A stretch of 64,000 nucleotides of DNA from positions 1 through 64,000 of the forward strand of contig NZ_CAMLJQ010000014.1 of assembly GCF_946480305.1 (NCBI RefSeq), read 5' to 3'. This DNA comes from an uncultured Caldimonas sp. GTDB taxonomy: Bacteria > Pseudomonadota > Gammaproteobacteria > Burkholderiales > Burkholderiaceae. Below the pieces are notes generated by a model. That model searched no databases, was not told the origin of the DNA, and saw only the letters and a program-made list of their open reading frames with translations. Each line of letters starts with the position of its first letter. The first letter of the stretch is position 1. The position numbers and the translations under genes were made by a program. This document shows positions 391 through 36,126 of this stretch, piece after piece.

Positions 391-1059
391 TCATTCAGCG
401 CCTCCATCGCCATCTTCTTCCCCGGAGGCAAGCTTTTCAGCCTCAGGCAGCCTGCCCGCGAAAAAGTCGGCCACTCTTTGAGTAATCTCCCGAGCCGAGA
501 GAGGGTTGGCGGCCAAAGCAAGGGTTTCGACGAACTTGCGACCAGGGTGCAGCACATCCCAGGACGAGCGCTTTTGCGTCGCGCGCCCCTTCCCGGGCGT
601 CTTGTTGCCAAAGCCGTCGATAACCCGGTTCCAGAGTGGCTGGTACTTCTCGATCACGACGTTCTCGCCGAGAGGAATCCAAATGTCGTCCACCGTCAGC
701 GCCCGGTACTGGAAGTCCGCGAGATCGAGATTGCTCGCCTCGTTGATCGACGAGGCATGTTGGGCCAGACGGTCGCGCAGGGCCTTGCCCTTGCCGGCAT
801 CGAAGCCGAGCCCGCCCTTGCGCGCCCCCTTTGGCACCGCCTTGCCCACGTAGATGGGCTGCAGGAACTGGTTGTCGGCGTTGCGGGCCGCGACGGGAGC
901 GTAGGCCGCGAAGCCGCCGGTGTAGTAGATGGCATAGACGCCGGCCCCGACCAGGTGCCCGGTTTCACTCAGCGAACGCACGGGCACCCGAAGCAGGGCT
1001 TCGGCGACACTTTCCCCGAGGTTGGCTTTCGCCAGCGGGTTGTAGGGTTCTTGGCTCAA
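391..1059 (-). CDS. Eco29kI-family GIY-YIG restriction endonuclease
   Basis: This 222-aa protein is close in length to Eco29kI (about 214 aa), a type II enzyme that cuts CCGCGG with a GIY-YIG active site. Visible motifs are GVYAIYY (40-46), PIYVGKA (68-74), Arg97 with His101 four residues later, and Glu132 with Asn144 twelve residues later. These spacings match those I recall for the catalytic Arg, His, Glu and Asn of Eco29kI. The N-terminal NPLAKANLGESV and the KAVPKGARKGG stretch are also family-like. It is the last gene of the minus-strand defence island, 115 nt after the PIN gene. The methyltransferase upstream is its likely protective partner. Target specificity is inferred from the family. 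Confidence 0.88.
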   Translation of the reverse strand: MSQEPYNPLAKANLGESVAEALLRVPVRSLSETGHLVGAGVYAIYYTGGFAAYAPVAARNADNQFLQPIYVGKAVPKGARKGGLGFDAGKGKALRDRLAQHASSINEASNLDLADFQYRALTVDDIWIPLGENVVIEKYQPLWNRVIDGFGNKTPGKGRATQKRSSWDVLHPGRKFVETLALAANPLSAREITQRVADFFAGRLPEAEKLASGEEDGDGGAE

Positions 1060-1174
1060 GTGGCTTCCTCCGGCCGGTACTCAAACGAACCATTATCAAT
1101 GGCACGATTCGTCGAGCCGTGGCACCCCCGTCACCGAAGCCAACCCCGAGTGCGGGCTTGGCCGGCGCGAGACT

Positions 1175-2299
1175 TTAGGAAGATGGATCGCCTTCCAGGG
1201 TGGCCAGTCGCTCCCGCATCGCGTTCACCAGGCCGGTTAGCTCGCTGATGCGGGATTTCAGGGCCTGCTTGGCGTCCTCGCCGAGAGATGCCGCGTGCGA
1301 CGGCGTCGGCGGTAGGTCGATGAGCGCCTTGATCAGCCCGTCCAACTCGGTTTCCTTGCTGCGCAATTCGGCCCGCAGCGCCTTTTGCGATTTGAACCGC
1401 TCGGCCGTGGACGACGGTGCGTCGGTCTCCGCGCCAGCCACGAGGCTGTCAGCGATCTTTTGCACCGACTCTTCCTTGATCTCGGAACCGGTGACGGCCG
1501 CGTAACGCAGGAATTGCAGCAGCTCGTAGATGTGGAACTCCTGACCCGTCGCCGCCAGGAATTCCTCGATCAGCGCGGGATGCGGTCCCATCTTGCGGCC
1601 GCGGTGGATATGCCACCAATCGGACTTCCCGTCGTCGGTGACGAAGATGATCGGCCGCTTGCCCGCCTTGGCCTTCTCAATCATCTCCATCCAGATCACC
1701 AGATCGCCGAACTTGTCGCCGCCCTCGGCCGCCTTCTTCGCGTCCTCGAAGCCGGGCGGTATTTTCTTGGCGTACCGCTCGTTGCCTTCCTTGTGAATGG
1801 CCGCGATGCGCTCGGCCGTCGGCTTCGCGCCCACCTTGCCGGTGAACAGCTCGGTCACCTTGGCGAAGCTCACGTTGAATTCATCCGTCGGGTGTCGGGC
1901 CTTGGCCGCCGCGATGCGCTGCTGGAAGTCGGCCTGGAACACGTCGAGCGCCGACAACTCGCGCTCGATGTCGATCACCGGGTGCGCGCGATATTGATTG
2001 AGGCCGTCCTTGGCCTGATTCACGAACTTGGTCAGGTCGGTCCCGAGGCGGTCATAGGCATCGAGCGCGTACTGCTGGACATCGAGCCGGCGGCGCTGAA
2101 ACTCGATCCCCACCTGATACGGAATCCACAGCGACGCCTTCTTGCGCTCGAAAACGTCCATCAGCTGGCCCCTCACCTCGGCGGAATGGCGCAGCAAATG
2201 CAGAAGGATGTTCGTGTCGGGAACGATCAGCGCCGCGTCCCAGAGCGCTTTCAACTGCTCGGGTGACTTCGCGTACCAGCCGACGAATGTTGTTTTCAT
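1175..2299 (-). CDS. PIN-like domain nuclease (PIN_8 type)
   Basis: This 374-aa protein has an N-terminal PIN-like fold. It carries a PDTN motif at 27-30 with Asp28 as the first acidic metal ligand, an internal GDKFGDLVIW block, and FVTDDGKSDWW with the last acidic residues. This pattern fits the PIN_8 family of large PIN-like proteins, which are expected to be metal-dependent RNases or DNases. The C-terminal 100 residues are charged and probably coiled coil. I chose the ATG at 2299 because the protein then starts at the conserved MKTTFVGW block, has GGGA upstream, and leaves 22 nt after the previous stop; an alternative ATG at 2338 overlaps the upstream gene. In this operon it may be a toxic effector. 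Confidence 0.75.
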   Translation of the reverse strand: MKTTFVGWYAKSPEQLKALWDAALIVPDTNILLHLLRHSAEVRGQLMDVFERKKASLWIPYQVGIEFQRRRLDVQQYALDAYDRLGTDLTKFVNQAKDGLNQYRAHPVIDIERELSALDVFQADFQQRIAAAKARHPTDEFNVSFAKVTELFTGKVGAKPTAERIAAIHKEGNERYAKKIPPGFEDAKKAAEGGDKFGDLVIWMEMIEKAKAGKRPIIFVTDDGKSDWWHIHRGRKMGPHPALIEEFLAATGQEFHIYELLQFLRYAAVTGSEIKEESVQKIADSLVAGAETDAPSSTAERFKSQKALRAELRSKETELDGLIKALIDLPPTPSHAASLGEDAKQALKSRISELTGLVNAMRERLATLEGDPSS

Positions 2300-2321
2300 T
2301 GATGTCCCGTTCCAGCTCGCG

Positions 2322-2849
2322 TCAGTCGATCCATTCAACCCGCGCGATGCCCAGTCGCTCGGCCGCGCCCCGCACCAAGATGCGCGTGCTGTCGTCCGCC
2401 GTGTTGCCGCTTTCCAGCAACACGGTGCCGAAGGCCGAGGCGCCGTGGTTCAGAGCGGTGCGCTCGTACACCGCCATCAAAATCAGCTTCCAGTCCCGGC
2501 TCTTGCCCCAGGCGATGATCTGGCCGTCGATGAAACGGAGGCCGTGCGGCTTGATGTAGCGATGCACGACTTCACGCGTGGGGTCAACATCCAGGACCGC
2601 GAGAATGTCCTGCTCCGTGCCCGACACACGCGCGCGCTCGTAGGGTTTCAGCAGGGAATCCTTGATGTATACGCGGACCTTGCGCGGGTCCATGTAGTGG
2701 CCCAGCGTCCCGCCGATCGCCGTTTCGCGGGTCCATTGTTCGTAATACCGCGATCGCTCGACATCGGACAGCCCCGACCAGCCCAGGTCGTTGGCGCGCT
2801 CCCAAAGCATGTCGCGGATGCGGTCGCGCACGTCATCAGGCAGCTTCAT
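2322..2849 (-). CDS. unrecognised defence-island protein, 175 aa
   Basis: I do not recognise this family. The protein is soluble, rich in charged residues and aromatic positions (WERANDLGWSGL, YYEQWTRE), with no signal peptide or membrane segment. The N-terminal half is predicted helical and the C-terminal half contains alternating hydrophobic strands (LRFIDGQIIAWG, WKLILMAVYE). The start at 2849 is supported by an ATGA overlap with the end of the helicase gene, which suggests translational coupling and a shared complex or function. A longer frame to 2951 lies inside the helicase gene and is less likely. Its fixed place between helicase and PIN gene suggests an accessory subunit of the restriction complex. 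Confidence 0.65.
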   Translation of the reverse strand: MKLPDDVRDRIRDMLWERANDLGWSGLSDVERSRYYEQWTRETAIGGTLGHYMDPRKVRVYIKDSLLKPYERARVSGTEQDILAVLDVDPTREVVHRYIKPHGLRFIDGQIIAWGKSRDWKLILMAVYERTALNHGASAFGTVLLESGNTADDSTRILVRGAAERLGIARVEWID

Positions 2850-4519
2850 TGGACATTCCCGCGCGGGCCGGTTGGCGGAAAATCGAACTCGGGCAGCTCC
2901 AGCGTCGGATCCCCCTCGCGATTGAACAGGTCCGCCTGATCCTTCATCCAATTCAGCATGAAGCTGCTGGCGCCGATGTCGCGGAACTGCACGAGGCGAC
3001 CGCCCATGCGCAACGTCTCGACATCGCCCTTCGCGGCCCGTTCCAGCTCGATGACCTCGGCGATGCGTCGCAGATCACTGACGAAGTCCAACACCACGAC
3101 CTTGTCCTTTCCCGGGCTGAGGCGCAGCCCGCGGCCCAACTGCTGAACGAAGATGCGGCGGCTGTGGGTCACCCGCATGAACGCGATCATGTCAACGTCG
3201 GGAACGTCCACGCCTTCATTGAACAGGTCGCGCGTGGTCACGATGTCGAGAATGCCACGGCGGAATGCCGCCATCGTCTTGTCGCGCGTCCGCGGGTCCA
3301 TGTCGCCGGTGATGGCCTCGGCGCGGAAACCGAACAGCCGCAGCATGGCCGCGAAGGCGCGCGCGTGGACCACGGTGGAGCAAAAGACAACGCCGGCACG
3401 GCGTCGCTCGGCCGTGAATGACTCGCGGATGATCTTCACCGCTTCCTCGTCCCGCGTCGGGATGAGCAGCTTCCTGTTCAGCTGCTGCAGGGAGTAGTTG
3501 TGGACGGAGCGCTCGCGCACGAACTCCCAATCCACGTTGTCGGCCAGCAAGCGGTAGTCGGCCTCGCACAGAAAACCGTTGCGCAGGCCCTCGGCGATGC
3601 CCACGCGCACGACGGGCTGGCCGAGCATCTGATCGATGTCGTATCCGTCGCCGCGCCACGGGGTCGCGGTCACGCCGCCAAGCATCGGCGCGTTCAGGGC
3701 CTTGACGACGGTCTGGAAGCTTTCGGACCCGACGTGGTGTGCCTCGTCCACCAGAACCAGCCCAAAGCGCGGCAGATCATCAAGGCGGGACATCACGCTT
3801 TGCACCGTCGCGAAGGTGATGCCATCCCAATACGACGGTTCTTCGCCGCCCATCAGCCGATGCGTCGAGACCGATTTCGGCAGTTGGTCCCAAAAGGACC
3901 GCTGGAGCTGGTCAACCAGTTCGCGCGTGCCGGCCATCACCAAGACCTTGCCGTCAGGGATCGCTTCCTCGCGATAGAGCTGCGAAACCACCTCCGCCAT
4001 GACAACGGTCTTGCCGAGGCCCGTGGCCAGGACCACCTGTCCCTTGCCCGTTTCGCGCAGCGCGCCCATGAACTGCTCGGCCGCGTCCGCCTGATAGGGC
4101 CGGAGCTGGCGCCGCGCGCGCGGATATTCCGGCGAGCGACGCGCCATCTCGATCAGCGTCGCGGCCGGCAGCAATTCCACATTGATGCCGAGCGCGGCCC
4201 ACTTCTTGACCGCTGCGAATGTCGCTGGCCCGAAGGCTCGCGACGCCGCGACGACCATGCGATCGGCTTCGTAGAAGCGCGCCGCCTCGACGACCTCGTC
4301 AACGGCGTCGGGCGTCGGGTATTGATTCGAGACGAACTTGCATTGGAAAACCCAAAGCTCGCCCGCCTTGACGCCGAGCACGTCGGCGCCCTTGTCGCCG
4401 CTGCCGCCGACCACGCGCACATCCTCGAACCCGTTGGCCACCAACAGCCGCGCGACATCGCGCTCGAACGCTTGCCACGGTCCGTTCAGTAGGCGTCGCG
4501 TGTCGAGGAACGTCTCCAT
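2846..4519 (-). CDS. SF2 helicase fused to an Mrr-type nuclease domain
   Basis: This 557-aa protein has two modules. Residues 1-125 resemble an Mrr-type PD-(D/E)xK endonuclease, with GDKGADVLGV (Asp46) and WVFQCKF (Gln59, Lys61). Residues 138-500 form a superfamily 2 helicase: Walker A ATGLGKT at 165-171, DEAH at 258-261, TATP at 284-287, a motif V-like region GVDVPDVD, and the arginine-finger motif QQLGRGLR ending near Arg466. It probably moves along DNA and cuts it, in the manner of translocating restriction enzymes. Its ATG is 1 nt after the stop of the GHKL ATPase gene, and its end overlaps the next gene by 4 nt. Strand and substrate preference cannot be read from sequence. Confidence 0.88.
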   Translation of the reverse strand: METFLDTRRLLNGPWQAFERDVARLLVANGFEDVRVVGGSGDKGADVLGVKAGELWVFQCKFVSNQYPTPDAVDEVVEAARFYEADRMVVAASRAFGPATFAAVKKWAALGINVELLPAATLIEMARRSPEYPRARRQLRPYQADAAEQFMGALRETGKGQVVLATGLGKTVVMAEVVSQLYREEAIPDGKVLVMAGTRELVDQLQRSFWDQLPKSVSTHRLMGGEEPSYWDGITFATVQSVMSRLDDLPRFGLVLVDEAHHVGSESFQTVVKALNAPMLGGVTATPWRGDGYDIDQMLGQPVVRVGIAEGLRNGFLCEADYRLLADNVDWEFVRERSVHNYSLQQLNRKLLIPTRDEEAVKIIRESFTAERRRAGVVFCSTVVHARAFAAMLRLFGFRAEAITGDMDPRTRDKTMAAFRRGILDIVTTRDLFNEGVDVPDVDMIAFMRVTHSRRIFVQQLGRGLRLSPGKDKVVVLDFVSDLRRIAEVIELERAAKGDVETLRMGGRLVQFRDIGASSFMLNWMKDQADLFNREGDPTLELPEFDFPPTGPRGNVQ

Positions 4520-4520
4520 T

Positions 4521-6896
4521 TCATTCCGCCGTGTCGGGACGGAGTAGCTTCAAGGACAGGCTCGCCCGGATCAGGGCGTCGCGGCCGGTTCTTTCAAGAT
4601 CCATCGGGGACTGGCTCGCCAGCCACACGGCGTCCGCGAAATAGCCGTCATAGCGCGCGCGCACGACGCGGCGCGCCTCGTCGCTCACGTCGGGCGAACC
4701 AAAGTCGAGCGCGGCATAGGGATCGTCCCAATACTTGCCATCGAGGAACAGTTCCGGATGCGCGCCGAAGAAGTCGCGGATCGTTTGCGGGTCGGCGTAG
4801 TTGAGGAACGCGCCCGAAGCAATCGCATCGCGTGGCGCGGCCACGCCGCGCGCGACCATCCGGCGGCCGATGGCGTCCCGGGCGGGCGCGCTCAATGCAT
4901 CGTGCAGCGCCGTCCCCTCGCCGTTCGCGACCTTGCCTTGCAGCGACGCCGCGATCTGCGTCAGTGTGTTCGTCGCCTCGACGATGATTTCCCCGGCGTC
5001 GAGGCGCGAGTCGGCGCAATACTCCCGGCGGAAATCGGCCAGGATCGACGCGAAGGTCACGTCCGGCGCCGTCTGCCGCAGGAAGTCCATCGTGCGATGC
5101 GACAGCTCGATCAACAACGCGTCGAGGGGCGTCATCGTGGTCGAGCGGTACAGGTCGTGCGCCGTGTTGGTCAGGAACGCATAGGTGCGCGTGGCGACAT
5201 CGACGAGCGGCAAGGCCCAGGGGTGGCCTGCGCCAAGGCCCGGATCGCGCGGATCGACCGCGAAGCCCTGCACGTCGTACTCAACCCGATAGGTCGGATG
5301 CACGTATTTCCGGGTCAGCTCGAAGATCGGCCTGCGCTCCAGCACGGGCGCCGGAGCGGGCGGCGGCGGTGAAACGGTCGCGCCTGGGGGCGGTGGAGCC
5401 GGCGGCGCCGCGCCGCCGCCGGCATCGTCATCGAGGAACCCCGGGGGGATGTCACTCGGCGCGGGCGCGGGCGCGCCGCCCGGCGTCGTCGGGGACGGAG
5501 CGCCGAGCACCGTCGCGTCCTGCTCCTCGACAAGCTGCCACCAGCGCTCATCGCCCAGGTAGTCCGGCTCGTCGTTCTCGAACAGGCCCGCCATCTCAAG
5601 CGCGCGCTCGTTGTCCTTCACCACGAGGATGCGTGACCACAGGCCGTTCTTCCCTTGCGGCGACGTGCGCCGGAAGGCCTGGAACAGCCGGAAGAGCGGG
5701 CTGTTGTTGGCGCCATAGCCCAGGGTCTTGGCCTTGAGCGGTTGCAAGGGGCCGTCGCCACGCACCAGGCGCACCATCTCGTCCCACGCGGGATCGTCGC
5801 GCTCGAACCGGTCCTTCGTGTAGCTCACCCGGCAATGGTCAAGATGGATCTCGCCGACGAACCGGCCACGCTTGCGCTGGTCGTCGGTCGGGTACTCGAT
5901 CTCGGAGCTATCGCCTTCCCGCCACTCGAACAAATCCTTGATGCCAAGCTCGATCTTGCGGCCGTTGCGAATGATGTCGAGGCCGAAGTCGGTGTCGTGC
6001 AGGTAGCGCTGAATGCCGACCCAGCCGCGCACGCGCCGCTCCATCGTGACCACGCGGCACGAACTACTGCTCGTGGGACACGTCGTCTCGCCCTCGGGCA
6101 ATGTCTGCATGCAGGCGGCGCAGTAACGCCGCGGCGGCAACGCGACGTTGAAGCGTTCGACGGCGTGAACCGTGCCGACGCTGCTCTCGACATGGCGTTC
6201 GGGATTCCATGTGCAATGCCGCCGCGCCGAAATGCGCGTGCCATTGAGTTCAAGCCGGAACACGGCGGGGCCGCTCTCCGGAGACAGCAGGGCCGAATAC
6301 GCCTTGGCGAGATGCTTGCGCATCGCCGTCACGTTTTGGCCGCGCGCCAGCCAGGCGCGTTGCTCCGGCTTCAGCTTGGAGATGACGATCTCGGTGCCGT
6401 GCGCGGTATGGTCGGCCTTGGGCCTGGTCTGCCGCGCCACCTTGAAATTGCGCTGCGCCCGCAGCTCGTCGAGGTCGATGCGCACGCCGATTTCATGCGG
6501 GTCACCCGCGCGCGATGTCCAAACCTCGGTGACGAGACCGAGGCGGGCCGTCGCGATGTTGAAACCCATGCCGAACAGCCCCAGGCTGCCAACCGGGCTG
6601 TTGCCCGACCAACCCGCCCGCACCGCGTGTTCGAGCGTTTCGGCGGACATGCCCGGCCCGTTGTCGCGGACGGAAACCCGCGCGGCCGCAGTGTCCGTCC
6701 GCGGGACGGTGATCACGACCTCGGGATTGGCGATGGCGTTGCCGAGGCGTTCGGCGCTCATGAATCCGTCGATGCTGTTATCGACGAGTTCCGCGAGGCA
6801 GCGCCATTGGGCAAGATTGATCTCGCCCAGCATTTGCAGCACCCGAGGGTCGGGCGTCAGGTCGAAGTCCGTCGTTGCGCCGGCGGTTGTTGTCAT
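4521..6896 (-). CDS. GHKL ATPase, MORC/Hsp90-like, of restriction system
   Basis: This 791-aa protein carries a Bergerat ATP fold. The N box is LAELVDNSID (Glu36, Asn40), the G1 box is DNGPGM at 78-83, the G2 loop is LGLFGMGF near 105-112 and the G3 motif is HGTEI at 166-170. Cysteines at 259, 262, 273 and 280 could form a zinc ribbon. A Pro/Ala/Gly-rich linker near residues 470-540 separates a long unassigned C-terminal region. MORC and MutL-type ATPases are known in some prokaryotic R-M operons, where ATP-driven clamp closure on DNA is the proposed role. The gene starts 113 nt after the methyltransferase gene, behind a good Shine-Dalgarno (AGGGAG), and leads directly into the helicase gene. 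Confidence 0.85.
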   Translation of the reverse strand: MTTTAGATTDFDLTPDPRVLQMLGEINLAQWRCLAELVDNSIDGFMSAERLGNAIANPEVVITVPRTDTAAARVSVRDNGPGMSAETLEHAVRAGWSGNSPVGSLGLFGMGFNIATARLGLVTEVWTSRAGDPHEIGVRIDLDELRAQRNFKVARQTRPKADHTAHGTEIVISKLKPEQRAWLARGQNVTAMRKHLAKAYSALLSPESGPAVFRLELNGTRISARRHCTWNPERHVESSVGTVHAVERFNVALPPRRYCAACMQTLPEGETTCPTSSSSCRVVTMERRVRGWVGIQRYLHDTDFGLDIIRNGRKIELGIKDLFEWREGDSSEIEYPTDDQRKRGRFVGEIHLDHCRVSYTKDRFERDDPAWDEMVRLVRGDGPLQPLKAKTLGYGANNSPLFRLFQAFRRTSPQGKNGLWSRILVVKDNERALEMAGLFENDEPDYLGDERWWQLVEEQDATVLGAPSPTTPGGAPAPAPSDIPPGFLDDDAGGGAAPPAPPPPGATVSPPPPAPAPVLERRPIFELTRKYVHPTYRVEYDVQGFAVDPRDPGLGAGHPWALPLVDVATRTYAFLTNTAHDLYRSTTMTPLDALLIELSHRTMDFLRQTAPDVTFASILADFRREYCADSRLDAGEIIVEATNTLTQIAASLQGKVANGEGTALHDALSAPARDAIGRRMVARGVAAPRDAIASGAFLNYADPQTIRDFFGAHPELFLDGKYWDDPYAALDFGSPDVSDEARRVVRARYDGYFADAVWLASQSPMDLERTGRDALIRASLSLKLLRPDTAE

Positions 6897-7009
6897 GTGC
6901 GGCTCCCTGGGCTTGGCGCGCCGGGCGTGGCGAAGTGTATTTGATACCTACGCGTTCGCGCGTCGCGTGTCCCTTCTTGGTGATGCGTTGAAGCGCGGGC
7001 GAGCATCTA

Positions 7010-8203
7010 TCAGGCGGCGCGCACGATGCTGAGCCGTGGGCGACCCGCAGCGTTCAGCGTATCGGCCACGGATTGCGCCATGACTTCACCGAGGCGAACC
7101 GGCACGGCGTTGCCGAGTTGGCGCATGGTTTCCGTCCAGGAGCCGCGGAAGATGTAGTCGTCCGGGAAGGTTTGAAGGCGCGCGGCTTCGCGCACCGTGA
7201 AATAGCGGATCGAGCCATCCGGCCGTAGCAGCATGTTTTCGCCGCCCGGCACTCCATGATCGCCCGCCTTCAACGTCTTGGCGGGCTCGTCCAGCGGGCT
7301 TCCCGTGTGCCCGGGATAGCTGCGCGCCCCGGGATTGAAGACGTGATTGGGGATGCCGTTCCGCGGATTCTTTTCCGGATCGGGCAGATCGGAAATCGCG
7401 TCGCGCACGGTGACCCACGGCAGGCCCATGAACATGTCCTCGTCGCGCAGCCGGGCTATGCGACGTTCCAGCTTGGGCGACATGGTCGGGCGGTTGCGCT
7501 TCGCCACGCGGTGGCGTTCCCAATACTCGCCCGTGATCCACTGGTCACGTAGCAGCGCGTCCTCGCAATGCGTGGCCTCGGGGAATGACCATTCCACGCC
7601 GAGATCGGAACGGAAGCCAATCAGAAACACCCGTTCGCGTCGCTGCGGCACGCCGTAGTTCGCGGCATTCAGCAGCCGGTACACCACGTTGTAGTGGGCG
7701 GCGCCTTGATTGCTCGTGTGATGACGCTCCAGCCGCGCGCGATGCGTCTCCCAGGTCTCGCCCTTCTTGCGGGTCAGGTCGGGATGCGAGAGCTGAAGGT
7801 GGACGTATTCGAAGTACGACGCGAACGACTGGCGCAGCAGCCCCTTCACGTTCTCGAAAATGAAGGCCTTGGGCCGCAGTTCACGCACGGCGCGGACGGC
7901 CTGCGGGAACATGTCGCGTTCATCCATGTGGCCGCGGGCCTTGCCACCCATCGAGAAGGGTTGGCAGGGCGGTCCGCCGGACACCACCATCACCTCGCCG
8001 CCAATCGTGCCGTAGTCGAACGCGCGCGCGTCGCCCTCGAACACGGGCCAGCGCTCCACGTCATGCGCGTGGTTCTGTTGATTGAAGCGGAAGGTCTCGC
8101 ATGAATCGTGGTCCCATTCGACGACGGCGGCATGGTTGAAGCCAGCCCGTCCCATCCCCATCGCGAGTCCGCCGGCTCCGGCGAACAGTTCAACGCTGCG
8201 CAT
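7010..8203 (-). CDS. C5-cytosine DNA methyltransferase (type II modification)
   Basis: This 397-aa DNA (cytosine-5) methyltransferase transfers a methyl group from S-adenosylmethionine. Motif I FAGAGG is at 7-12, the PCQ nucleophile motif has Cys80, the ENVK motif is at 117-120, the QRRER motif follows near residue 190, and the C-terminal motifs REAARLQTFPDDY and QLGNAVPV are present. The target-recognition region lies between QRRER and the C-terminal motifs. It should protect the sites cut by the linked GIY-YIG nuclease; CCGCGG is the inferred site. The gene starts inside the end of vsr (14-nt overlap), so the two are translationally linked. Confidence 0.93.
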   Translation of the reverse strand: MRSVELFAGAGGLAMGMGRAGFNHAAVVEWDHDSCETFRFNQQNHAHDVERWPVFEGDARAFDYGTIGGEVMVVSGGPPCQPFSMGGKARGHMDERDMFPQAVRAVRELRPKAFIFENVKGLLRQSFASYFEYVHLQLSHPDLTRKKGETWETHRARLERHHTSNQGAAHYNVVYRLLNAANYGVPQRRERVFLIGFRSDLGVEWSFPEATHCEDALLRDQWITGEYWERHRVAKRNRPTMSPKLERRIARLRDEDMFMGLPWVTVRDAISDLPDPEKNPRNGIPNHVFNPGARSYPGHTGSPLDEPAKTLKAGDHGVPGGENMLLRPDGSIRYFTVREAARLQTFPDDYIFRGSWTETMRQLGNAVPVRLGEVMAQSVADTLNAAGRPRLSIVRAA

Positions 8204-8603
8204 CGAGAAATCTCCTAATCCTGTTGGCCAACTTGGCGGTGTCGCCGAGCTGGCATTCCCAAATCGTCAAGACGCTCCACCCGAGCCGCCGCAGCGCGCG
8301 CACGTTGCGCGCATCGCGTTCCGCGTTCGCGGTCAGCTTCGGCAACCAAAATTCGCCGCGCGACTTCGGCAGCCGGGCGAGCGCGCAGCGCGCGTGCCGG
8401 TGCCAGAAGCAGCCATGTATGAGGATGACCTTGCTGCGGCCGGGAAACACCAGGTCGGGCGTGCCGGGCAGATCGCGCCGATGCAGTCGGTAGCGGTAGC
8501 CCATGCCATGCACGAGGCGGCGCACCAGCAATTCCGGCTTCGTGTCCTTGGCGCGCACGAGCGCCATGCGCGCCGAGCGTTCCGCCGGGGTGAGGGTGTC
8601 CAT
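8190..8603 (-). CDS. vsr: very short patch repair endonuclease Vsr
   Basis: Vsr nicks DNA next to T:G mismatches that arise when 5-methylcytosine deaminates, so it limits mutation at sites methylated by the linked enzyme. The 137-aa protein keeps the family residues: Asp50 in PGTPDLVF, His63, Cys65, His68, His70, Cys73 and Cys117, equivalent to the catalytic and zinc residues of E. coli Vsr. Its ATG follows the stop of the small RHH gene with no gap (TGAATG), and its end overlaps the methyltransferase start by 14 nt. Order and overlap support one operon. Confidence 0.93.
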   Translation of the reverse strand: MDTLTPAERSARMALVRAKDTKPELLVRRLVHGMGYRYRLHRRDLPGTPDLVFPGRSKVILIHGCFWHRHARCALARLPKSRGEFWLPKLTANAERDARNVRALRRLGWSVLTIWECQLGDTAKLANRIRRFLDAQR

Positions 8604-8813
8604 TCATCCGCCCTGACCCTTCCCCGCGAACAACGGCCATTGGTCGCCGACGTACTTCTCGGCGGCCTCGCGCACCACCCAGGCCACGGAAACCTTCTTT
8701 TCCCTGGCGATGCGCTCTAGCATCGCGTACAGCTCGGGCGGGAAGCTGACCGAGGCCCGGGGCATTCTCGGTTCGCCGCTTGGCTTCGTCGCGTGCTTGC
8801 CGCTGGCCGCCAT
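8604..8813 (-). CDS. ribbon-helix-helix regulator of the restriction operon
   Basis: This 69-aa protein contains a CopG/Arc-type ribbon-helix-helix: a short strand (PRASVSF), a helix (PELYAMLERIAREKK), a turn (VSV) and a second helix (AWVVREAAEKYV). Such proteins bind DNA as dimers on short repeated sites. It is the first gene of the minus-strand operon and probably controls its expression, playing the part a C protein plays in other R-M systems. I chose the ATG at 8813; an upstream frame extension to 8993 is biased and runs through the promoter region. Direct repeats overlap the likely -10 just upstream, which supports autoregulation. Confidence 0.75.
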   Translation of the reverse strand: MAASGKHATKPSGEPRMPRASVSFPPELYAMLERIAREKKVSVAWVVREAAEKYVGDQWPLFAGKGQGG

Positions 8814-8830
8814 GTTGTCTCCCGTGTTGA

Positions 8831-8866
8831 GTGCACCACTGTACACCACCGAGGTGCAGCGACCAA
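8831..8866 (-). promoter_or_regulatory. candidate promoter and RHH operator of the restriction operon
   Basis: On the minus strand TTGGTC (8861-8866) and TACAGT (8838-8843) are 17 bp apart and could be -35 and -10. On the plus strand two 10-mers in tandem, GTGCACCACT (8831-8840) and GTACACCACC (8841-8850), match at 8 of 10 positions, and an inverted GGTGCA lies at 8853-8858. Repeats of this size and phase suit a ribbon-helix-helix repressor. Binding by the adjacent gene product is inferred. Confidence 0.5.
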
Positions 8867-8875
8867 CAGGATTTG

Positions 8876-9121
8876 CTAGGCGCGGGTTTGTCGCCAGTCG
8901 CGAGCGTCCCACACCCAACCCGGGAGGGCCTCCAGCGCCGCCACTTCGCGGGCATCGTGGTATTGCCTGCGGCGTCGCTGCTCCGCAGCCCAAATGCCCA
9001 GCTTAAACCCGTCGCCCGACACAAAGCTGCGCGGCGGCAGGGCATGACCGTGCTCCTTGGCATAGGCGACCAAGCGCTGATAGTTTTTCATCCAGTTGTC
9101 GTGGTTGCGGACATTCGCCAT
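8876..9121 (-). CDS. orphan helicase-associated (HA) domain protein
   Basis: The 81-aa product is essentially one helicase-associated domain, with a spaced aromatic pattern: NYQRLVAYAKEHGHALPP, LGIWAAEQRRRR, LEALPGWVWD. In other bacteria and phages this domain repeats at the C terminus of SF2 helicases. Here it stands alone with an ATG at 9121 (an alternative at 9154), just upstream of the RHH gene on the same strand. It could be a remnant of a decayed helicase gene or a small stand-alone DNA-binding protein. No catalytic domain is nearby on this side. Confidence 0.5.
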   Translation of the reverse strand: MANVRNHDNWMKNYQRLVAYAKEHGHALPPRSFVSGDGFKLGIWAAEQRRRRQYHDAREVAALEALPGWVWDARDWRQTRA

Positions 9122-9154
9122 GGAGCTTGGGAGGAAGCCTGTGAGCAACGCCAA

Positions 9155-9551
9155 TTATCTCAGGCCTCCCGGCGCCACCCGTCGGGCCCGATCTGGTGAC
9201 GCAAGACAGCTTGACTCCCAGCGTGGCGCATGCGCGCCGTACTAGGAGCACAAGCCGCCCCCCCCCCCTTTTGACGATTGCAGCGACATTCACCACTGCA
9301 GATACTTAAACGCAGAATTACAAAGCCTGCGAACACCATTAATGCGTATTCGCACGAGCTGGGTTGGGTCTGCGCGCGCGTAGTTTGAAGGTGGCGCGCA
9401 AAGAGGGGACGACAATTTCGCATAGTTCTTCGACGTCTCGTCACGTCAGAGCCAACCTGTCCGATCTCATCACAAAGCCGGCAGCGGCAGAAGTGACGCG
9501 ACGATGCCTTAGAGCATCTTCTCTGTCCGGCTGCCGAGCGAGCAGACCGGA
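9155..9551. other. non-coding junction between defence island and ICE core
   Basis: I see no gene with support here. The stretch separates minus-strand defence genes from the plus-strand ICE core. It contains a run of eleven C at 9258-9268 followed by TTTT. No inverted repeats or transposase remnants that would mark an insertion are visible. Short frames on both strands have biased, domain-free translations. Confidence 0.4.
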
Positions 9552-9557
9552 GTGGAG

Positions 9558-10283
9558 ATGCCGAGGAACAACGACCTTCACCTTCCAAAAACCTACTACC
9601 GCCCCATCGAAGCGGCCATCAGATGGACGGGGCTCGAGCGCTTTGAGTCTCAGATTCTCTCCGCGCTCGGAAACCGTAGCCATCCGACGACGGACGACTT
9701 CCCACGATGGCCGATGCTGTACGTGAACACCGAGCGAATACTCGATGGCATGCGGCATGGGGACTTGCCGTTCGGCCGCGGAGTGATCGCCTGCAGCGAC
9801 CTCTCGTTGATCCATGACGCGGACGTCACCGTCCGGCATGTCGATCTTCGCGCATGGATGATCCGCTACTACCCTGACCAGAAACCGTCGTTCCTGTTCG
9901 ACGAGTTCGAGCGAAGTCTGCACCCCGCAATCTGCATGGAGAACGTGCAGGCACTGATGGCCGACCGAGAGGCCCTTCAGCTTCGCGTCGCCGCATACGA
10001 AGAGGAACTGGCCTGCCTTCGCAATGTACTGAAGCGCCAACCTCAGAACGATGGCCCCCTCGGCCCCCGCAGCGAGACCACCTACCTCAACATCATTGGT
10101 GCGATGCAGAAGCTACTGCTCGGCACCACGCCCTCCGGTTCACCCAACTCTCTGTTCCGAACCACGGATTCGCTGATCGAGGCCTTGGTGGCGCACCACA
10201 GTGGTCTGCCTGGCATCAGCGAACGCACGCTCTGGACCAAGCTCGCAGCCGCGCGCAAACAGATCGAGACGGCGTCGCGCTGA
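9558..10283 (+). CDS. conserved ICE protein of unknown function
   Basis: This 241-aa soluble protein often precedes the alpA-parA genes in related elements; I recall it only as a hypothetical, sometimes misannotated as a receptor kinase. Residues around 130-165 (QALMADREALQLRVAAYEEE) are likely coiled coil. The C-terminal 70 residues carry a TTYLNIIGAMQKLL helix and an ISERTLWTKLAAARKQI helix that recur in this family and resemble a small helical DNA-binding tail. I chose the ATG at 9558 with GGAG upstream; a GTG at 9552 would add two residues. It has no signal peptide and no enzyme motif. Its place upstream of the control operon hints at a regulatory role. Confidence 0.6.
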   Translation: MPRNNDLHLPKTYYRPIEAAIRWTGLERFESQILSALGNRSHPTTDDFPRWPMLYVNTERILDGMRHGDLPFGRGVIACSDLSLIHDADVTVRHVDLRAWMIRYYPDQKPSFLFDEFERSLHPAICMENVQALMADREALQLRVAAYEEELACLRNVLKRQPQNDGPLGPRSETTYLNIIGAMQKLLLGTTPSGSPNSLFRTTDSLIEALVAHHSGLPGISERTLWTKLAAARKQIETASR

Positions 10284-10318
10284 TCTGCAATTGCAGACGA
10301 CGGGTCTGCAGTTGCAAT
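10284..10318. promoter_or_regulatory. twin palindromic operator upstream of alpA
   Basis: A perfect 14-bp palindrome TCTGCAATTGCAGA (10284-10297) is followed 21 bp later, start to start, by a near copy TCTGCAGTTGCAAT (10305-10318). The 21-bp spacing is two helical turns, as for dimers bound side by side. A possible -35 TTGCAA (10312-10317) overlaps the second site and a weak -10 TTCTAT (10335-10340) lies 17 bp further. This is probably the control site of the alpA-parA operon; the bound regulator is unknown. Confidence 0.6.
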
Positions 10319-10392
10319 GACTTTTGCTGCGATGTTCTATTGAATACGAGGCACGTCCAACAGCGCCGAAACGCGCGCAAAGGGAATGCTTC

Positions 10393-10605
10393 ATGTCATC
10401 GCACACATCCACCGCCGCCGCCAGCCGCCGCATCCTCCGCCGCGCGGAGGTCGAAGCCCGCACCGGTTTCAAGCGCGCCCACATCTACAACCTGATGAAG
10501 GAAGGCAAGTTTCCCAAGGCCAAACGCCTCGGGGTGCGCGCCGTCGGCTGGGATTCGGAGGAAATCGAGCAGTGGATTGCCGACCGCCTGGGCCAGACGG
10601 CTTAA
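10393..10605 (+). CDS. alpA: AlpA-family DNA-binding regulator
   Basis: The 70-aa protein has the AlpA/MerR-like winged helix pattern: RRAEVEARTGFKRAHIYNLMKEGKFPKA, then VGWDSEEIEQWIADRL. AlpA proteins are transcription activators of mobile elements or excisionase-like accessory proteins. I start it at the ATG at 10393 because the frame upstream is outside the domain. It is the first gene of the ICE control operon, followed 19 nt later by parA, and sits behind a twin palindromic operator. In ICEclc the equivalent promoter is the bistability control point, as far as I recall. Confidence 0.8.
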   Translation: MSSHTSTAAASRRILRRAEVEARTGFKRAHIYNLMKEGKFPKAKRLGVRAVGWDSEEIEQWIADRLGQTA

Positions 10606-10624
10606 CCCCGCGGCGGAGCAAGCC

Positions 10625-11476
10625 ATGCACGTGGTCTCCATCATCTCCACCAAGGGCGGCGTGGGCAAGACGACGACGGCCGCCAACCTCGGCGGGTTCA
10701 TCGCGGATGCCGGCCTGCGCGTTCTGCTCCTGGATCTCGACAGTCAACCGACGCTTTCGAGCTACTACCACCTGAGCCACCGCGCCGAATGCGGCATCTA
10801 CGAGCTGCTGGCCTTCAATGAGCGCGACCTCAGCCGGCTGGCATCGCGCACCGGCGTCGACGGGCTCGATGTCGTGCTCTCGAACGACACGCAGGGCCAG
10901 TTGAACACACTGCTGCTGCATGCGCCGGACGGTCGCCTGCGCCTGCGCAACCTGCTGCCGACCTTCGAGTCGCACTACGACTTGATGCTGATCGACACCC
11001 AGGGCGCGCGCAGCGTCATGCTCGAAATGGCTGTCCTCTCGTCAGCCGTCGCGCTGTCCCCCGTCGCGCCGGAGATCCTGTCGGCTCGCGAGCTGCGCCG
11101 CGGGACGTTGCAACTGCTCGACGACATCGCCCCATACCGCCACCTCGGCATCACGCCACCGCCATTGCACCTGCTGATCAACCGGGTCCATCCGGTTTCG
11201 TCGAACGCTCGCGTGGTGCGTGAAGCGCTGAGGCAGATGTTCGAGGACCACCACAGCGTCCGCGTTCTCGACACGGAACTACCGGCCCTCGAAGCCTATG
11301 CGCGAGCCGCCACGCTGGGCGTTCCAGTGCACCGCATCGAGCGACGACGGCCGAGCGGACGCACGGCTCCCGCCGCTCTGGAGTCCATCCGTGCCCTGGC
11401 CAGCGAGTTGTTTCCGGCCTGGAAGGACCGCTTTGACTACGTGACCGGGAGGGCGCGCCATGCGGCATGCGCGTGA
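10625..11476 (+). CDS. parA: ParA/Soj partition ATPase
   Basis: This 283-aa deviant Walker-type ATPase starts MHVVSIISTKGGVGKTT, with the signature lysine at 10 and the Walker A threonines at 16-17. LLLDLDSQPT is the switch region and LMLIDTQGA the Walker B region. ParA proteins position DNA using ATP-dependent nucleoid binding together with ParB. In ICEclc, parA acts with the small overlapping gene shi in arresting division of transfer-competent cells; I infer the same pairing here from gene order. I chose the ATG at 10625, 19 nt after alpA, since the protein then begins at the conserved strand. Confidence 0.92.
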   Translation: MHVVSIISTKGGVGKTTTAANLGGFIADAGLRVLLLDLDSQPTLSSYYHLSHRAECGIYELLAFNERDLSRLASRTGVDGLDVVLSNDTQGQLNTLLLHAPDGRLRLRNLLPTFESHYDLMLIDTQGARSVMLEMAVLSSAVALSPVAPEILSARELRRGTLQLLDDIAPYRHLGITPPPLHLLINRVHPVSSNARVVREALRQMFEDHHSVRVLDTELPALEAYARAATLGVPVHRIERRRPSGRTAPAALESIRALASELFPAWKDRFDYVTGRARHAACA

Positions 11477-11702
11477 GCTGCACCGCGGCCACAAGCGCCT
11501 GCGGCCGTTGATCGAGTACGCGTTGAGCGAAGGCTGGGAGGTCAGCCGCACCGCAGGCGGGCACCTGAAGTTCGTCAAGCCCGGCATGCCGCCCATCTAC
11601 ACCAGCTCGACGCCGCGCGATCAACGTTCAGTGCTCAATGCCCGAGCCCGGTTCAGCCGGGCCGGAGCGACGCTGGAAGCCGAGGAGTCCGAACGTGAGT
11701 GA
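11460..11702 (+). CDS. small HicA-like/Shi-like protein
   Basis: The 80-aa product has the HicA double-stranded RNA-binding-like pattern, with GWEVSRTAGGHLKFVKPG including the central GGH, then IYTSSTPRD. HicA toxins use that histidine to cut mRNA. The gene overlaps the end of parA by 17 nt and the GTG start of parB by 8 nt. In ICEclc a small gene at the same place, shi, works with parA to stop host division. This protein may be that homologue rather than a toxin-antitoxin toxin, since no HicB antitoxin gene follows. Function is inferred from position and fold pattern. Confidence 0.65.
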   Translation: MRHARELHRGHKRLRPLIEYALSEGWEVSRTAGGHLKFVKPGMPPIYTSSTPRDQRSVLNARARFSRAGATLEAEESERE

Positions 11703-13269
11703 GCTGACACCGCAGGCCATGGTGGACAAGCTGATGACGGATGGGTTCGCTCGCAACGGCCCTGCAGCGAGTGCGACCACCGATCCCCTGGTCGACACCC
11801 CCATGGTGCTGACGCTGGACCAGCTGCGGCCCTACGACCACGACCCGCGACTGACGCGCAACCCGCTGTACGAGGAGATCAAGGCCTCGATCCGGGAACG
11901 CAACCTCGACTCGCCGCCGGCCGTCACACGGCGCCCTGGAGAGACCACGTACATCATCCGCAACGGGGGCAACACGCGCCTGGCCGTCCTGCGCGAGCTG
12001 TGGGCGGAAACCCGCGACGAGCGCTTCTTCCGCATCCTCTGCCTGTTCCGCCCCTGGTCCCCGCGTGGCGAAATCGTGGCTCTCACTGGGCATCTGGCGG
12101 AGAACGAGCTGCACGGCGGACTCAGCTTCATCGAGCGAGCCCTCGGCGTCGAAAAAGCCCGGGAGCTGTACGAACAAGAAACCGGGCAGACGCTCTCCCA
12201 ATCGGAGCTGGCGCGCCGACTGACGGCCGATGGCTTTCCGATCAAGCAACCGCATATCAGCCGGATGCAGGAGGCAGTCCAGCATCTGCTGCCGGCCATT
12301 CCGAATGCGTTGTACGGCGGACTTGGACGCAAACAGGTCGAACGCCTGTCCTTCCTGCGTCGGGCCTGCGAGCGCGTGTGGGATCAACGGTGCACACGCG
12401 GCCTCGATGAGTTCCAGGAGCTGTTCCAGGACGTGGTGTCGGCCTTCGACGGAGCGGCCGAAGCGTTCTCCTATGAGCGCGTGCAGGATGAACTCGTCGG
12501 CCGAATATCCGAGGAGCTCGCCATCGACTACGACGTGCTGTGCCTCGAAGTGCTCACCGACGAAACTCGACATGAGGCATTGAGCAATCCCCAGCCTCCT
12601 GTGGCCCGTGAGCCTGTGGTTGCGGTTCAGCATTCCCCGACCCCTGCCGCATCTCCCCCTGTCGCAGTCCCATCGACGCAGCTCGGACGGCCCCTGCCCG
12701 GCACACCCGCACCGCGCGAGGAGTCTCCGACCGGAGACTCGGCAGCCCAGCCACTCGGTCCGTCACCGCCCGCCCCTGACCGGCTGCAAGCCATTCGCGG
12801 ACTTGTCGTCGACAGTCTGGACGAGGCGAGCGACGCCGAGCCGGATACGACACGCTTTCCTGTGGGCGTCGATGGCCTCTATCCAATCTCCGACATCTGG
12901 TCCATCGACGTGAGCATTGACGCACCCGAACACCTGCGGGTGCACCTCGGGCAGCTCGCACGGGAAGTCGCGGCCGAGACGGGCTGCGTCGACCAGGTAC
13001 AGGACACCGACAACGGATTGGGGTTCAGGTGCGTCGCGGAACCGACTGCCGCTGCCCTGCCGCGAGGCTCTGCGGCCCTGTTGTCGCTTCTCGAAGCACT
13101 GTCGTCGAGCGATGGTTCGTCCCTGGGGGCATTTCTGGTCGGTGACTGTCACCGCGGAAGTCCGGATCGCCTGAGTGACGCGGCCCTGCTCAAACTGTTC
13201 CGACTGATACGCCTTGCGAGACGACTGGTGGACCAGGACCAGGCCGCCCTCGCCTCCATCGAGCCCTGA
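11695..13269 (+). CDS. ParB-family protein of the ICE control operon
   Basis: This 524-aa protein of the PFGI-1-class ParB family has an N-terminal ParB-like domain with NGGNTRLAVLRELW, then AENELHGGLSFIERALG and an HTH (QSELARRLTADGFPIKQPHISRMQ in two parts). A long Pro/Ala-rich linker near residues 310-375 leads to a separate C-terminal domain. I choose GTG at 11695, which overlaps the previous stop; the upstream ATG at 11638 lies deep in the previous gene. In ICEclc, as I recall, a ParB-domain protein (BisD) and a DUF2857 protein (BisC) form an FlhDC-like master activator of transfer genes. The next gene is a DUF2857 gene, so this pair may do the same. Confidence 0.82.
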   Translation: MSELTPQAMVDKLMTDGFARNGPAASATTDPLVDTPMVLTLDQLRPYDHDPRLTRNPLYEEIKASIRERNLDSPPAVTRRPGETTYIIRNGGNTRLAVLRELWAETRDERFFRILCLFRPWSPRGEIVALTGHLAENELHGGLSFIERALGVEKARELYEQETGQTLSQSELARRLTADGFPIKQPHISRMQEAVQHLLPAIPNALYGGLGRKQVERLSFLRRACERVWDQRCTRGLDEFQELFQDVVSAFDGAAEAFSYERVQDELVGRISEELAIDYDVLCLEVLTDETRHEALSNPQPPVAREPVVAVQHSPTPAASPPVAVPSTQLGRPLPGTPAPREESPTGDSAAQPLGPSPPAPDRLQAIRGLVVDSLDEASDAEPDTTRFPVGVDGLYPISDIWSIDVSIDAPEHLRVHLGQLAREVAAETGCVDQVQDTDNGLGFRCVAEPTAAALPRGSAALLSLLEALSSSDGSSLGAFLVGDCHRGSPDRLSDAALLKLFRLIRLARRLVDQDQAALASIEP

Positions 13270-13284
13270 CCCCGGAGGACCGCG

Positions 13285-13845
13285 ATGTCGGCACCGCATC
13301 CTCTGAACCAGGCCGTCATCGCCCAGGCCCTGCACGACCTGCGCAACGGTCAGTTGCGGCGTTGCAAGGCCATGGGCTTTGGTGAGCAGGACCTGGAAGC
13401 GCTCAAGCACCCCGCCCTGGTCAGTGTCCTGGTCAATGCCAGCGTCTCGTGGTGCTCCGTCAAGGTGAACCGAGAAGTCCTGCAGCGGCTGCTCAGCCAG
13501 GTGCAAGACGTCGAGAAGGACATCGCCACGGTCGACCGCATGCTGCGCCTGGGCGCCAGCACCGAGATGGTCAGCAAGTTCTATGGCCTCACTCACCAGG
13601 AGGTCGCCTTGCGTCGCGACGTGCTCGGCTTGCCCAAGCGCAAAGGTCGTCATCCTGTGCTGACCGAAGCACAGGACGCCGCCCTGTGGCAACGCTGGAA
13701 GCCGCTGCGGCAGGCGCAGGCCATCGCGTTGGACAACGACATGGCCATGATGTCGCTTTCCCTCGATCTGGCCGAGGAGTTCGCGCTTCCCGCGTCGGTG
13801 GTGTGGGCGACGATCCGGTGCTGGATCAGCCAGGGTCTGGTGTAG
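13285..13845 (+). CDS. DUF2857 protein, possible BisC-like activator subunit
   Basis: This 186-aa soluble protein matches the DUF2857 pattern found in ICE control operons. It is largely helical, with VSKFYGLTHQEVALRRDVLGLPKRKGRHP near residues 95-125 resembling an HTH followed by a basic segment. It starts 15 nt after parB with GGAGG upstream and ends 3 nt before the replication gene. Known relatives act with a ParB-domain partner to switch on element transfer genes. That role is transferred from ICEclc by gene order and not shown by the sequence alone. Confidence 0.75.
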   Translation: MSAPHPLNQAVIAQALHDLRNGQLRRCKAMGFGEQDLEALKHPALVSVLVNASVSWCSVKVNREVLQRLLSQVQDVEKDIATVDRMLRLGASTEMVSKFYGLTHQEVALRRDVLGLPKRKGRHPVLTEAQDAALWQRWKPLRQAQAIALDNDMAMMSLSLDLAEEFALPASVVWATIRCWISQGLV

Positions 13846-13848
13846 CCC

Positions 13849-34927: not shown

Positions 34928-36126
34928 GGCGCGGCCGCATCCACCTGGCGCTGCCGGCCCTGTTGCTCGGCCTCGTGCTGGCGGGGGCTGCCCAGGCGCA
35001 GCCGCCGGTCACGCTGGCAGACGCCGTCGAGGCGGCCTGGCGGCGCAGTGCCCAATCCGCCGAGGCGGCGGGGCAGTTGCACCGGGCCGAGGCCGGGCGC
35101 GTCAGTGCATCGGCACTGTGGGCGGCCCCGCCCGCGATGGAAGTGGGTGTCGTCCGCGACCGCCAACGCGGTGCCGGCACGACCCGCGAAACCGAGCTCG
35201 GCCTCGCCGTGCCGCTGTGGCTGCCGGGGCAACGCGCAGCCCGGCTGGGGCAGGCGGATGCCGAGCGGCATGCGGCAGACGCGGTCTCCGCGGCGGCGCG
35301 TCTGCGCCTGGCGGGCGCTGTGCGGGAACTGGCCGCCGAGGTGGCCCTGCAGCGGGCGGAGGTGGCGTCCGCCGAGGCCCAGAGCCGGGAACTCGACGCG
35401 GTGGCCAGGGATGCGGAGCGCCGTGTCGCGGCCGGTGAGCTGGCCCACGCCGATGCACTGGCCGCGAACGCGGAACGGCTCGCGGCGTCGGCTGCCCTCG
35501 CGCAGGCGAGACAGCGCCTGCAGTCGACCGAGCTGCAGTGGAAGGCGCTCACCGGGCTGACCACGGTGCCTGAAGCGCCCGCCGCGGCCGCGGCGGAGCC
35601 GGTGCACCCGGCGCTGCGAGCAGCGGCCCTGCAGGTGGAACTGGCGCGCAAGCGCCTGGATGCCGTGAAGGCCGACCGCCGCGATGCGCCCGAGCTGCTG
35701 GTGCGGGCGCGCCAGGAGGTGTCCACCGGCGAGCCGAGGACGAACGGCATCGGCGTGGCCCTGCGCATTCCCTTCGGCACCGCCGATCGCAACGAACCGC
35801 TGCTGGCGGCGGCGCTTGCCGAGCTGGGGATCGCCGAGGCCACGGAGCGCGAGCTTCGGCAACAGGTCGAGGCCGAGATCGCCGCCGCCCGATCGGCCGA
35901 AGAGCTGGCGCACCAGCAACTGGCCGACGAGCGTGCGAGGGCGGCGCTGCTGCGAGAGCGGGCCTCGCTGATCGAGAAATCCTACCGGGCCGGCGAAACC
36001 GCGCTGCCCGAGATGCTGCGCGCCGTCACCGCCGCGGCGCAGGCGGAAGCCGCGCTCACCCGTCAACAAGCCGTGCTTGCGCAGGCCGCCTCGCGGCTGC
36101 AGCAGGCACTGGGAGTCATGCCATGA
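34924..36126 (+). CDS. czcC: CzcC-like outer-membrane efflux protein (TolC family)
   Basis: The 400-aa precursor has a signal peptide (LALPALLLGLVLAGAAQA) and two halves of long amphipathic helices, typical of TolC family channels: VTLADAVEAAWRRS at the start of the first half and the VELARKRLDAVKAD segment in the second. It forms the outer-membrane tunnel of the RND pump encoded downstream. Its ends overlap the cupredoxin and the next gene by 4 nt each, so all are co-translated. The czcC name is by position and type; copper rather than zinc is the likely substrate. Confidence 0.85.
   Translation: MRRGRIHLALPALLLGLVLAGAAQAQPPVTLADAVEAAWRRSAQSAEAAGQLHRAEAGRVSASALWAAPPAMEVGVVRDRQRGAGTTRETELGLAVPLWLPGQRAARLGQADAERHAADAVSAAARLRLAGAVRELAAEVALQRAEVASAEAQSRELDAVARDAERRVAAGELAHADALAANAERLAASAALAQARQRLQSTELQWKALTGLTTVPEAPAAAAAEPVHPALRAAALQVELARKRLDAVKADRRDAPELLVRARQEVSTGEPRTNGIGVALRIPFGTADRNEPLLAAALAELGIAEATERELRQQVEAEIAAARSAEELAHQQLADERARAALLRERASLIEKSYRAGETALPEMLRAVTAAAQAEAALTRQQAVLAQAASRLQQALGVMP

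Follow-up and report, generated by a model that had tools for sequence, protein, structure and literature searches.

A composite restriction-modification island of an uncultured Caldimonas sp. that may place an ATP-dependent complex beside a Type II nuclease under one cytosine methylation mark

Operons in which MORC or paraMORC ATPases lie beside superfamily 2 (SF2) helicases, C5-cytosine methyltransferases (MTases) and Vsr were described as restriction-modification (RM) systems by Iyer, Abhiman and Aravind in 2008 (PMC2292703); one of the helicase groups is Rad25-like and commonly fused to restriction endonuclease (RE)-fold nucleases, and ATP-driven DNA looping was proposed. Here we analyse a 64,000-nucleotide stretch of contig NZ_CAMLJQ010000014.1 from an uncultured Caldimonas sp. 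(the window), in which an island of eight minus-strand genes at 391..8813 resembles these operons: it encodes a GHKL+S5 ATPase and links an SF2 helicase and its RE-fold nuclease with a cytosine MTase and Vsr. By contrast, three further products of the island, namely U175 (a conserved 175-aa protein without a family name), a PIN nuclease and an Eco29kI-type partner, are not mentioned in the available part of the text of that paper, nor is the logic of a shared methylation mark, although the uncharacterised X1-X3 of its figure could include U175. The sequence-only reading of the island had named no described system with this exact set. The theme of ATPase, helicase, Dcm and Vsr has in fact been known since that study, but neither U175 nor the PIN partner, nor the control of two machines by one mark, was found described in the literature searched; REBASE may list some of the genes.

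Three other kinds of systems come close. R.Eco29kI and R.Cfr42I cut CCGCGG, and among 310 CCGCGG 5-methylcytosine (m5C) systems most consist of a restriction endonuclease (REase) and an MTase only, while some carry V (Vsr), C and H (helicase domain protein) elements (PMC10855626). These Eco29kI/Cfr42I/DraI-type systems share with the window the GIY-YIG REase and, mostly, the m5C MTase, whereas the accessible text of that source does not mention a GHKL ATPase, U175 or PIN. CglI and NgoAVII add an ATP-dependent helicase of the DEAD family to an MTase and an R-protein, and their cleavage needs both proteins and nucleotide hydrolysis; yet they comprise three genes, and the portion of the source consulted names neither a GHKL ATPase nor a further restriction enzyme that acts alone (PMC4267653). 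Finally, the HEF_HK paraMORC/Response_reg_2 systems link a GHKL protein to a C5-MTase and Vsr, with ResIII or HSDR domains in the neighbourhood, but there the partner is a response-regulator-like protein, and neither U175 nor a PIN nuclease appears in the excerpted text (PMC8011034).

The eight genes form two modules (Table 1): an Eco29kI-type RM set (MTase, Vsr, REase) and a cassette (ATPase, Mrr-helicase, U175, PIN). On balance, comparison with related loci leads us to regard the locus as a composite RM island carried by an integrative conjugative element, in which a single m5C mark would license an ATP-dependent complex as well as a Type II nuclease. The distribution of the cassette was studied by scanning a U175 alignment against one genome per species, which seeded 29 loci. 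These are at most 26 distinct ones, since the ATPases of L003 and L004, of L008 and L009 and of L023 and L024 are identical; moreover, L005 resembles a damaged version of L003, and ATPase frames are broken in L001, L005 and L010. The order ATPase-helicase-U175 is kept in 28/29 loci, the exception (L026) being a remnant. A C5-MTase is present in 27 (it is missing from L026 and from L010, a 6.3-kb contig), Vsr in 23 (one weak), and PIN lies directly 3' of U175 in 24. A GIY-YIG nuclease occurs in 21, all of which have PIN; three of them (L001, L020, L021) encode a divergent subfamily that reaches only 21-24 bits against the profile used. PIN is present but the nuclease missing in L008 and L009, which are one sequence, and in L010. 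The earlier reading had made its idea of a composite system depend on the helicase, ATPase and PIN genes being more than random companions of the RM pair and had suggested surveying the co-occurrence of the 175-aa protein, PIN and the ATPase beside C5-MTases; the synteny, the co-evolution described below and the presence of the GIY-YIG gene in 21/24 PIN loci speak for it.

The cassette occurs in few genomes: true ATPase orthologues were found in 2/398 Pseudomonadota genomes and U175 in 3/385 genomes of the class of G002, one being the seed in each case. Among 348 Bacillota genomes, four including the seed matched the ATPase profile at E <= 1e-40, and seeding by the ATPase led to the same kind of locus as seeding by U175. 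Four-gene forms, with a C5-MTase and without PIN or the Eco29kI nuclease, are found in Bacillota, Actinomycetota and Deinococcota. The Bacillota locus L133 has the order MTase-ATPase-helicase-U175, L134 the same plus Vsr, and L135 a divergent MTase followed by ATPase-helicase, where the contig end cuts the cassette. The plasmid pDrdI of Deinococcus wulumuqiensis NEB 479 (L036) carries MTase-ATPase-helicase-U175, and in the Rhodococcus plasmid pLW4 (L063) ATPase-helicase-U175-like (32 bits) faces Dcm, followed by Vsr; a Streptomyces plasmid stretch (L064) has the ATPase alone of the cassette. PIN and the GIY-YIG nuclease were undetected in L133-L135, pDrdI, pLW4 and L064. No MTase was found in L094, an 8.3-kb contig ending in U175, nor in the Pseudosulfitobacter plasmid L037, where an IS3-family insertion sequence splits the ATPase from the helicase (3770-9528). 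On pDrdI, a nucleotidyltransferase, E2/UBC, Mov34 and SAVED set resembling a cyclic-oligonucleotide-based antiphage signalling (CBASS) operon adjoins the cassette (9105-13910); another SAVED protein is encoded close to L008.

As a rule the Eco29kI module is sufficient in itself, and the cassette is nearly always found with a C5-MTase. PF09517, the family of the REase, matched 13/398 Pseudomonadota genomes, one being the seed genome G001. The remaining 12 RM-only loci include a C5-MTase in 11 (none was detected in L092) and Vsr in five, and their MTase and REase genes are adjacent in 11/12, whereas the window has four genes between them. No cassette gene occurs in any of the 12 within the stretches fetched, although for L082, L083, L085 and L093 (short whole contigs) and L086 (which starts at a contig end) this rests on short DNA. 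Similarly, none of the 12 genomes is among the matches listed in the ATPase search of the 398 genomes, where at most two candidates were scored per genome.

Pairwise distances were compared by Spearman correlation among 16 loci with MTase, REase, ATPase, helicase, U175 and PIN; L001, L005 and L037 were left out for broken or interrupted frames and, in this run, also L020, L021 and L038. Within the cassette the values are high (ATPase-helicase 0.97, ATPase-U175 0.93, helicase-U175 0.91, ATPase-PIN 0.89, helicase-PIN 0.92, U175-PIN 0.82). They are lower between the four cassette genes and the MTase (0.55-0.64; MTase-ATPase 0.60) or the REase (0.57-0.75; REase-ATPase 0.68), and MTase-REase stands at 0.76. 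The contrast shrinks in a set of 12 spread-out loci, where the cassette genes give 0.74-0.96 with each other, 0.62-0.79 with the MTase and 0.67-0.92 with the REase. Module swaps are clearer than these correlations. Between L014 (Xanthobacter) and L018 (Herbaspirillum) the ATPase, helicase, U175 and PIN are 93%, 96%, 94% and 86% identical, against 48% for the MTase and 34% for the REase; between L020 and L022 the cassette is 90-97% identical, the MTase 73% and the REase 20%. Between the window and L001 the MTase is 96% identical and the cassette pieces 82-96%, while the REase slot of L001 holds the other GIY-YIG subfamily, 42% identical to that of L020. In the REase tree, cassette-linked and RM-only proteins interleave, with five changes.

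These data also bear on the possibility that the island is a plain defence-island neighbourhood of unrelated genes. The location of the island at one end of a conjugative-element segment, the interchangeability of Eco29kI-type RM modules and the missing cassette in 12/12 random RM loci would suit such a reading. Nevertheless, we consider it very improbable: the gene order in 28/29 loci across classes, which recurs in Bacillota and on Deinococcota and Actinomycetota plasmids, counts against it for ATPase-helicase-U175(-PIN), and so does the correlated evolution within the cassette, although the RHH gene may be such a neighbour.

The MTase bears on the idea of a shared mark: the signature in its target-recognition segment (Table 1) recurs with minor variation in RM-only, composite and core-only loci. 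A strict pattern for the second half of the signature in its target-recognition segment was found in 39/41 MTases of RM-only, composite and core-only loci (RM-only 11/11, the viral-contig L030, cassette-linked 27/29), the misses being L005, which is broken, and L029, from Paenibacillus. When L133-L135 are added, it is present in 27/28 cassette-linked MTases outside Bacillota (the miss being L005) and in 0/4 within them. Since the pattern was derived from the same set on which it was counted, the informative parts are the control and its presence in core-only loci. It is absent from all 26 control C5-MTases, the best-scoring one per genome of a 60-genome draw, for which 26/30 loci had a usable open reading frame (ORF); one of these, L102, is the second MTase of L002 and also one of four extra MTases checked for the pattern. 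That MTase, without the signature, belongs to a second, distantly related Vsr and C5-MTase pair that lies convergent to the island of L002 in Jeongeupia (12538-14327, minus strand). The signature is present in core-only Deinococcus (L036), Rhodococcus (L063), Paraburkholderia (L025), Herminiimonas (L028) and Rhodobacteraceae (L027). PF09517 had no match in G005, G136, G1099 and G1100, which have the cassette and a signature MTase; how complete these genomes are is not stated, and the search could miss GIY-YIG enzymes that are divergent. A signature MTase in core-only genomes without a PF09517 match favours the idea that the cassette itself is restrained by that mark. The Bacillota MTases of L133-L135 reach only 111-115 bits against the MTase profile and lack the signature, and so they likely target other sites. 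On two IMG/VR contigs (L030:398-4002 and L031) U175 is followed by FRG and GmrSD_N, and in L030 the signature MTase directly adjoins it, with no ATPase or helicase between; this is possibly a reduced or protective form on a mobile element.

In the core tree, which was built by a quick method with Shimodaira-Hasegawa-like approximate likelihood ratio (SH-aLRT) support only, has long branches for L036 and L063 and leaves out L001, PIN changes once and the REase twice. This would fit a gain of both PIN and the REase on the branch to a 20-row composite clade (support 97), and one REase loss in L008. Such a common origin might suggest that the cassette is a post-cleavage processor, the Eco29kI enzyme cutting first and the ATPase, helicase-nuclease and PIN degrading broken phage DNA or transcripts with no site recognition of their own; the confinement of the GIY-YIG nuclease to PIN loci (0/5 PIN-less ones have it) points the same way. 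Yet the cassette and an MTase occur without a PF09517 match in four Pseudomonadota genomes, two plasmid records and Bacillota genomes, and a module that only processed ends would have no use for the MTase kept there. Post-cleavage processing thus seems unlikely.

Vsr repairs T:G mismatches at deaminated m5C, and the island could alternatively be a DNA-repair module, in which Vsr, a MutL-like GHKL ATPase and the helicase-nuclease perform very-short-patch repair of m5C sites, guarding the RM system instead of restricting phage. Vsr is frequent in the U175-seeded loci and stays with the cassette as MTase and REase are exchanged (74% identity between L014 and L018 against 48% for the MTase), and such operons have been likened to MutL, Vsr and UvrD (PMC2292703). 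Nevertheless, Vsr was undetected in the core loci L027, L029, L036, L081 and L133 despite their C5-MTase and is found without the cassette in 5/12 RM-only loci, and an intact Mrr nuclease on the helicase, plus PIN, would exceed the needs of this repair. We give the repair reading a low probability.

The composite RM reading suggests the following scenario. The C5-MTase would methylate its own site, which by its relatives is most likely CCGCGG for both MTase and REase, and so mark self DNA, with Vsr mending the T:G mismatches that result from m5C deamination. The Eco29kI-type enzyme would directly cut the unmethylated site on incoming DNA. It had been called a methylated-site nuclease, but a GIY-YIG enzyme of this type is expected to be blocked by methylation. 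Independently, the GHKL/S5 clamp ATPase would recognise or trap unmethylated DNA together with U175, whose nuclease-like fold is probably dead and which perhaps serves as an adaptor or reads DNA. The Mrr-helicase, loaded by these two, could then move along DNA using ATP and cut. PIN, apparently gained once, may work with this ATP-dependent machine in one clade, by RNA or single-strand cleavage; the role of a last effector, which the first reading had proposed for it, is conjectural.

PIN domains are often toxin RNases, and a further alternative is that the cassette with PIN monitors host methylation and, once the RM system or the element is lost or overwhelmed, brings about death or arrest of the cell. 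The conserved catalytic acids of PIN and the location of the island on a conjugative element would agree with such an anti-loss or abortive-infection role; however, no antitoxin-like partner is seen besides the RHH gene, and PIN is missing from the earlier-branching forms of the core tree, which makes this quite improbable.

The first reading had seen the ATP-dependent part as a backup of the nuclease. It is probably a self-standing restriction machine and not only a backup, because four-gene MTase-ATPase-helicase-U175 forms exist without a PF09517 match in the searched genome or record. We tentatively suggest, with the balance slightly against it, an unnamed ATP-dependent restriction machine, consisting of a MORC-like clamp, an Mrr-helicase and U175 as specificity factor or adaptor, that occurs in at least four phyla and shares one m5C mark with a Type II enzyme; a mainly proteobacterial clade would have joined both and added PIN, giving a two-tier system with interchangeable nuclease cartridges for the same site. 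If so, one methylation mark would license two mechanistically different restriction machines, and phages able to evade or block the simple enzyme would still face the ATP-dependent one, at no extra methyltransferase cost. It would also provide a small, testable prokaryotic MORC-type system, minimally of four genes, in which the action of MORC ATPases on DNA, still an open question for their eukaryotic counterparts, could be studied. U175 itself is a protein family absent from the four profile libraries searched (Pfam, PADLOC, NCBIfam, PHROGs).

Table 1 Genes and segments of the island (positions in the window)
Feature	Coordinates	Strand	Evidence
RHH (CopG-like) small DNA-binding protein, 69 aa	8604..8813	-	Pfam RHH_1 25 bits; PHROG CopG-like repressor 24 bits
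Vsr endonuclease, 137 aa	8190..8603	-	Pfam Vsr 97 bits; NCBIfam TIGR00632 140 bits
C5-cytosine MTase, 397 aa, PCQPFS motif	7010..8203	-	Pfam DNA_methylase 198 bits; PADLOC MTase_II 441 bits
MTase target-recognition segment, aa 263-334	7202..7417	-	signature GARxYxGHTGSxxDxPAKxLKAGxHGVPGGEN
MORC-like GHKL+S5 ATPase, 791 aa	4521..6896	-	Pfam HATPase_c_3 40 bits
Mrr-type nuclease fused to SF2 (ResIII) helicase, 557 aa	2846..4519	-	ResIII/Helicase_C/Mrr_cat 87/58/53 bits
U175, conserved 175-aa protein without family name	2322..2849	-	helical N-terminal domain and possible PD-(D/E)XK-like C-terminal fold
PIN_8 nuclease with C-terminal tail, 387 aa	1175..2338	-	Pfam PIN_8 181 bits; phrog_9788 188 bits
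Eco29kI-family GIY-YIG REase, 222 aa	391..1059	-	PF09517 205 bits

The proteins of the island appear intact in their motifs. The ATPase has a GHKL domain followed by an S5 domain, as in the MORC/paraMORC families of the 2008 study; the S5 motif GhXhhpXXRhl of the MORC family proper is not found in it. Residues 14-430 of its AlphaFold2 model resemble the ATPase modules of SMCHD1, MORC3, Hsp90 and TopoVI, and the nearest solved structure by sequence is MORC3, a weak match (E 0.021). E36, D39, N40, D78, G82, G109 and G111 are unchanged in all 27 aligned ATPases and C259, C262, C273 and C280 almost invariant; the Cys-rich insert is zinc-ribbon-like and the C-terminal region helical. The helicase comprises Mrr_cat (14-125), ResIII (138-287) and Helicase_C (363-467) domains, with D42, D46, Q59, K61, G167-T171, D258, E259, H261 and Q459-R466 invariant in 29/29 sequences. 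U175 reached no Pfam family cut-off (only BAALC_N, at E 0.055) and had no match at E <= 0.01 in PADLOC, NCBIfam or PHROGs. In its 31-row alignment only K63, D64 and Y70 are invariant, all within the N-terminal domain, and no conserved ExK or D...(D/E)XK catalytic residues are found, so that its nuclease-like domain is probably non-catalytic. In PIN, E79 is conserved in 23/23 and D41, D212, D235 and D236 in 22/23 aligned loci; phrog_9788, which it matches, is a phage protein family of unknown function. The REase far exceeds the PF09517 cut-off of 30.8 bits, and its nearest solved structure by sequence is R.Eco29kI (3mx4, E=7.6e-36); Y70, R97, H101, E132 and N144 are identical in 33/33 aligned sequences, Y42 in 32/33 and K73 in 31/33.

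Among the eight genes, Pfam, PADLOC and NCBIfam revealed no Type I or III subunits (HsdS/HsdM, Mod adenine MTase), the sole MTase being the C5 enzyme. In PADLOC-DB 2.0.0 the best fits come from the generic models REase_II, MTase_II and Vsr, while matches of the MTase to DruM/DrmMII and of the helicase to mREase_IV/PbeA/DpdF/ZorD are family-level only; RHH and PIN, like U175, had no match at E <= 0.01, and the ATPase matched only MzaB (E 0.008).

All eight ORFs were verified at their coordinates. The island had been described as eight genes with short overlaps or tiny gaps through most of the run; the genes and domains were borne out, and the spacing is tight, but two gaps exceed 100 nt. RHH and Vsr abut (0 nt), Vsr and MTase overlap by 14 nt, and 113 nt separate the MTase from the ATPase; then follow a 1-nt gap (ATPase-helicase), overlaps of 4 nt (helicase/U175) and 17 nt (U175/PIN) and a 115-nt gap (PIN-REase). 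An internal ATG at codon 14 of PIN (position 2299) is an alternative start, which would leave a 22-nt gap after U175. The RHH frame is open to 8993, the 69-aa form beginning at 8813. Its product is a probable operon regulator; strong homologues head the operon in L001, L002, L025 and L028, and weak ones (23-31 bits) occur in other loci. Just upstream of RHH, a short minus-strand ORF (8876-9154) encodes a helicase-associated (HA) domain (52 bits) and is perhaps a fragment. To the right of the island, positions 10577-63724 hold the backbone of the integrative conjugative element, with ParA, topoisomerase, DUF6094 methyltransferase, SNF2/ResIII helicase, TraG/TraD, TraC and TraG_N proteins. Within it, an HlyD/CusB-type membrane-fusion protein and an AcrB-family RND efflux pump are encoded at 36077-40936.

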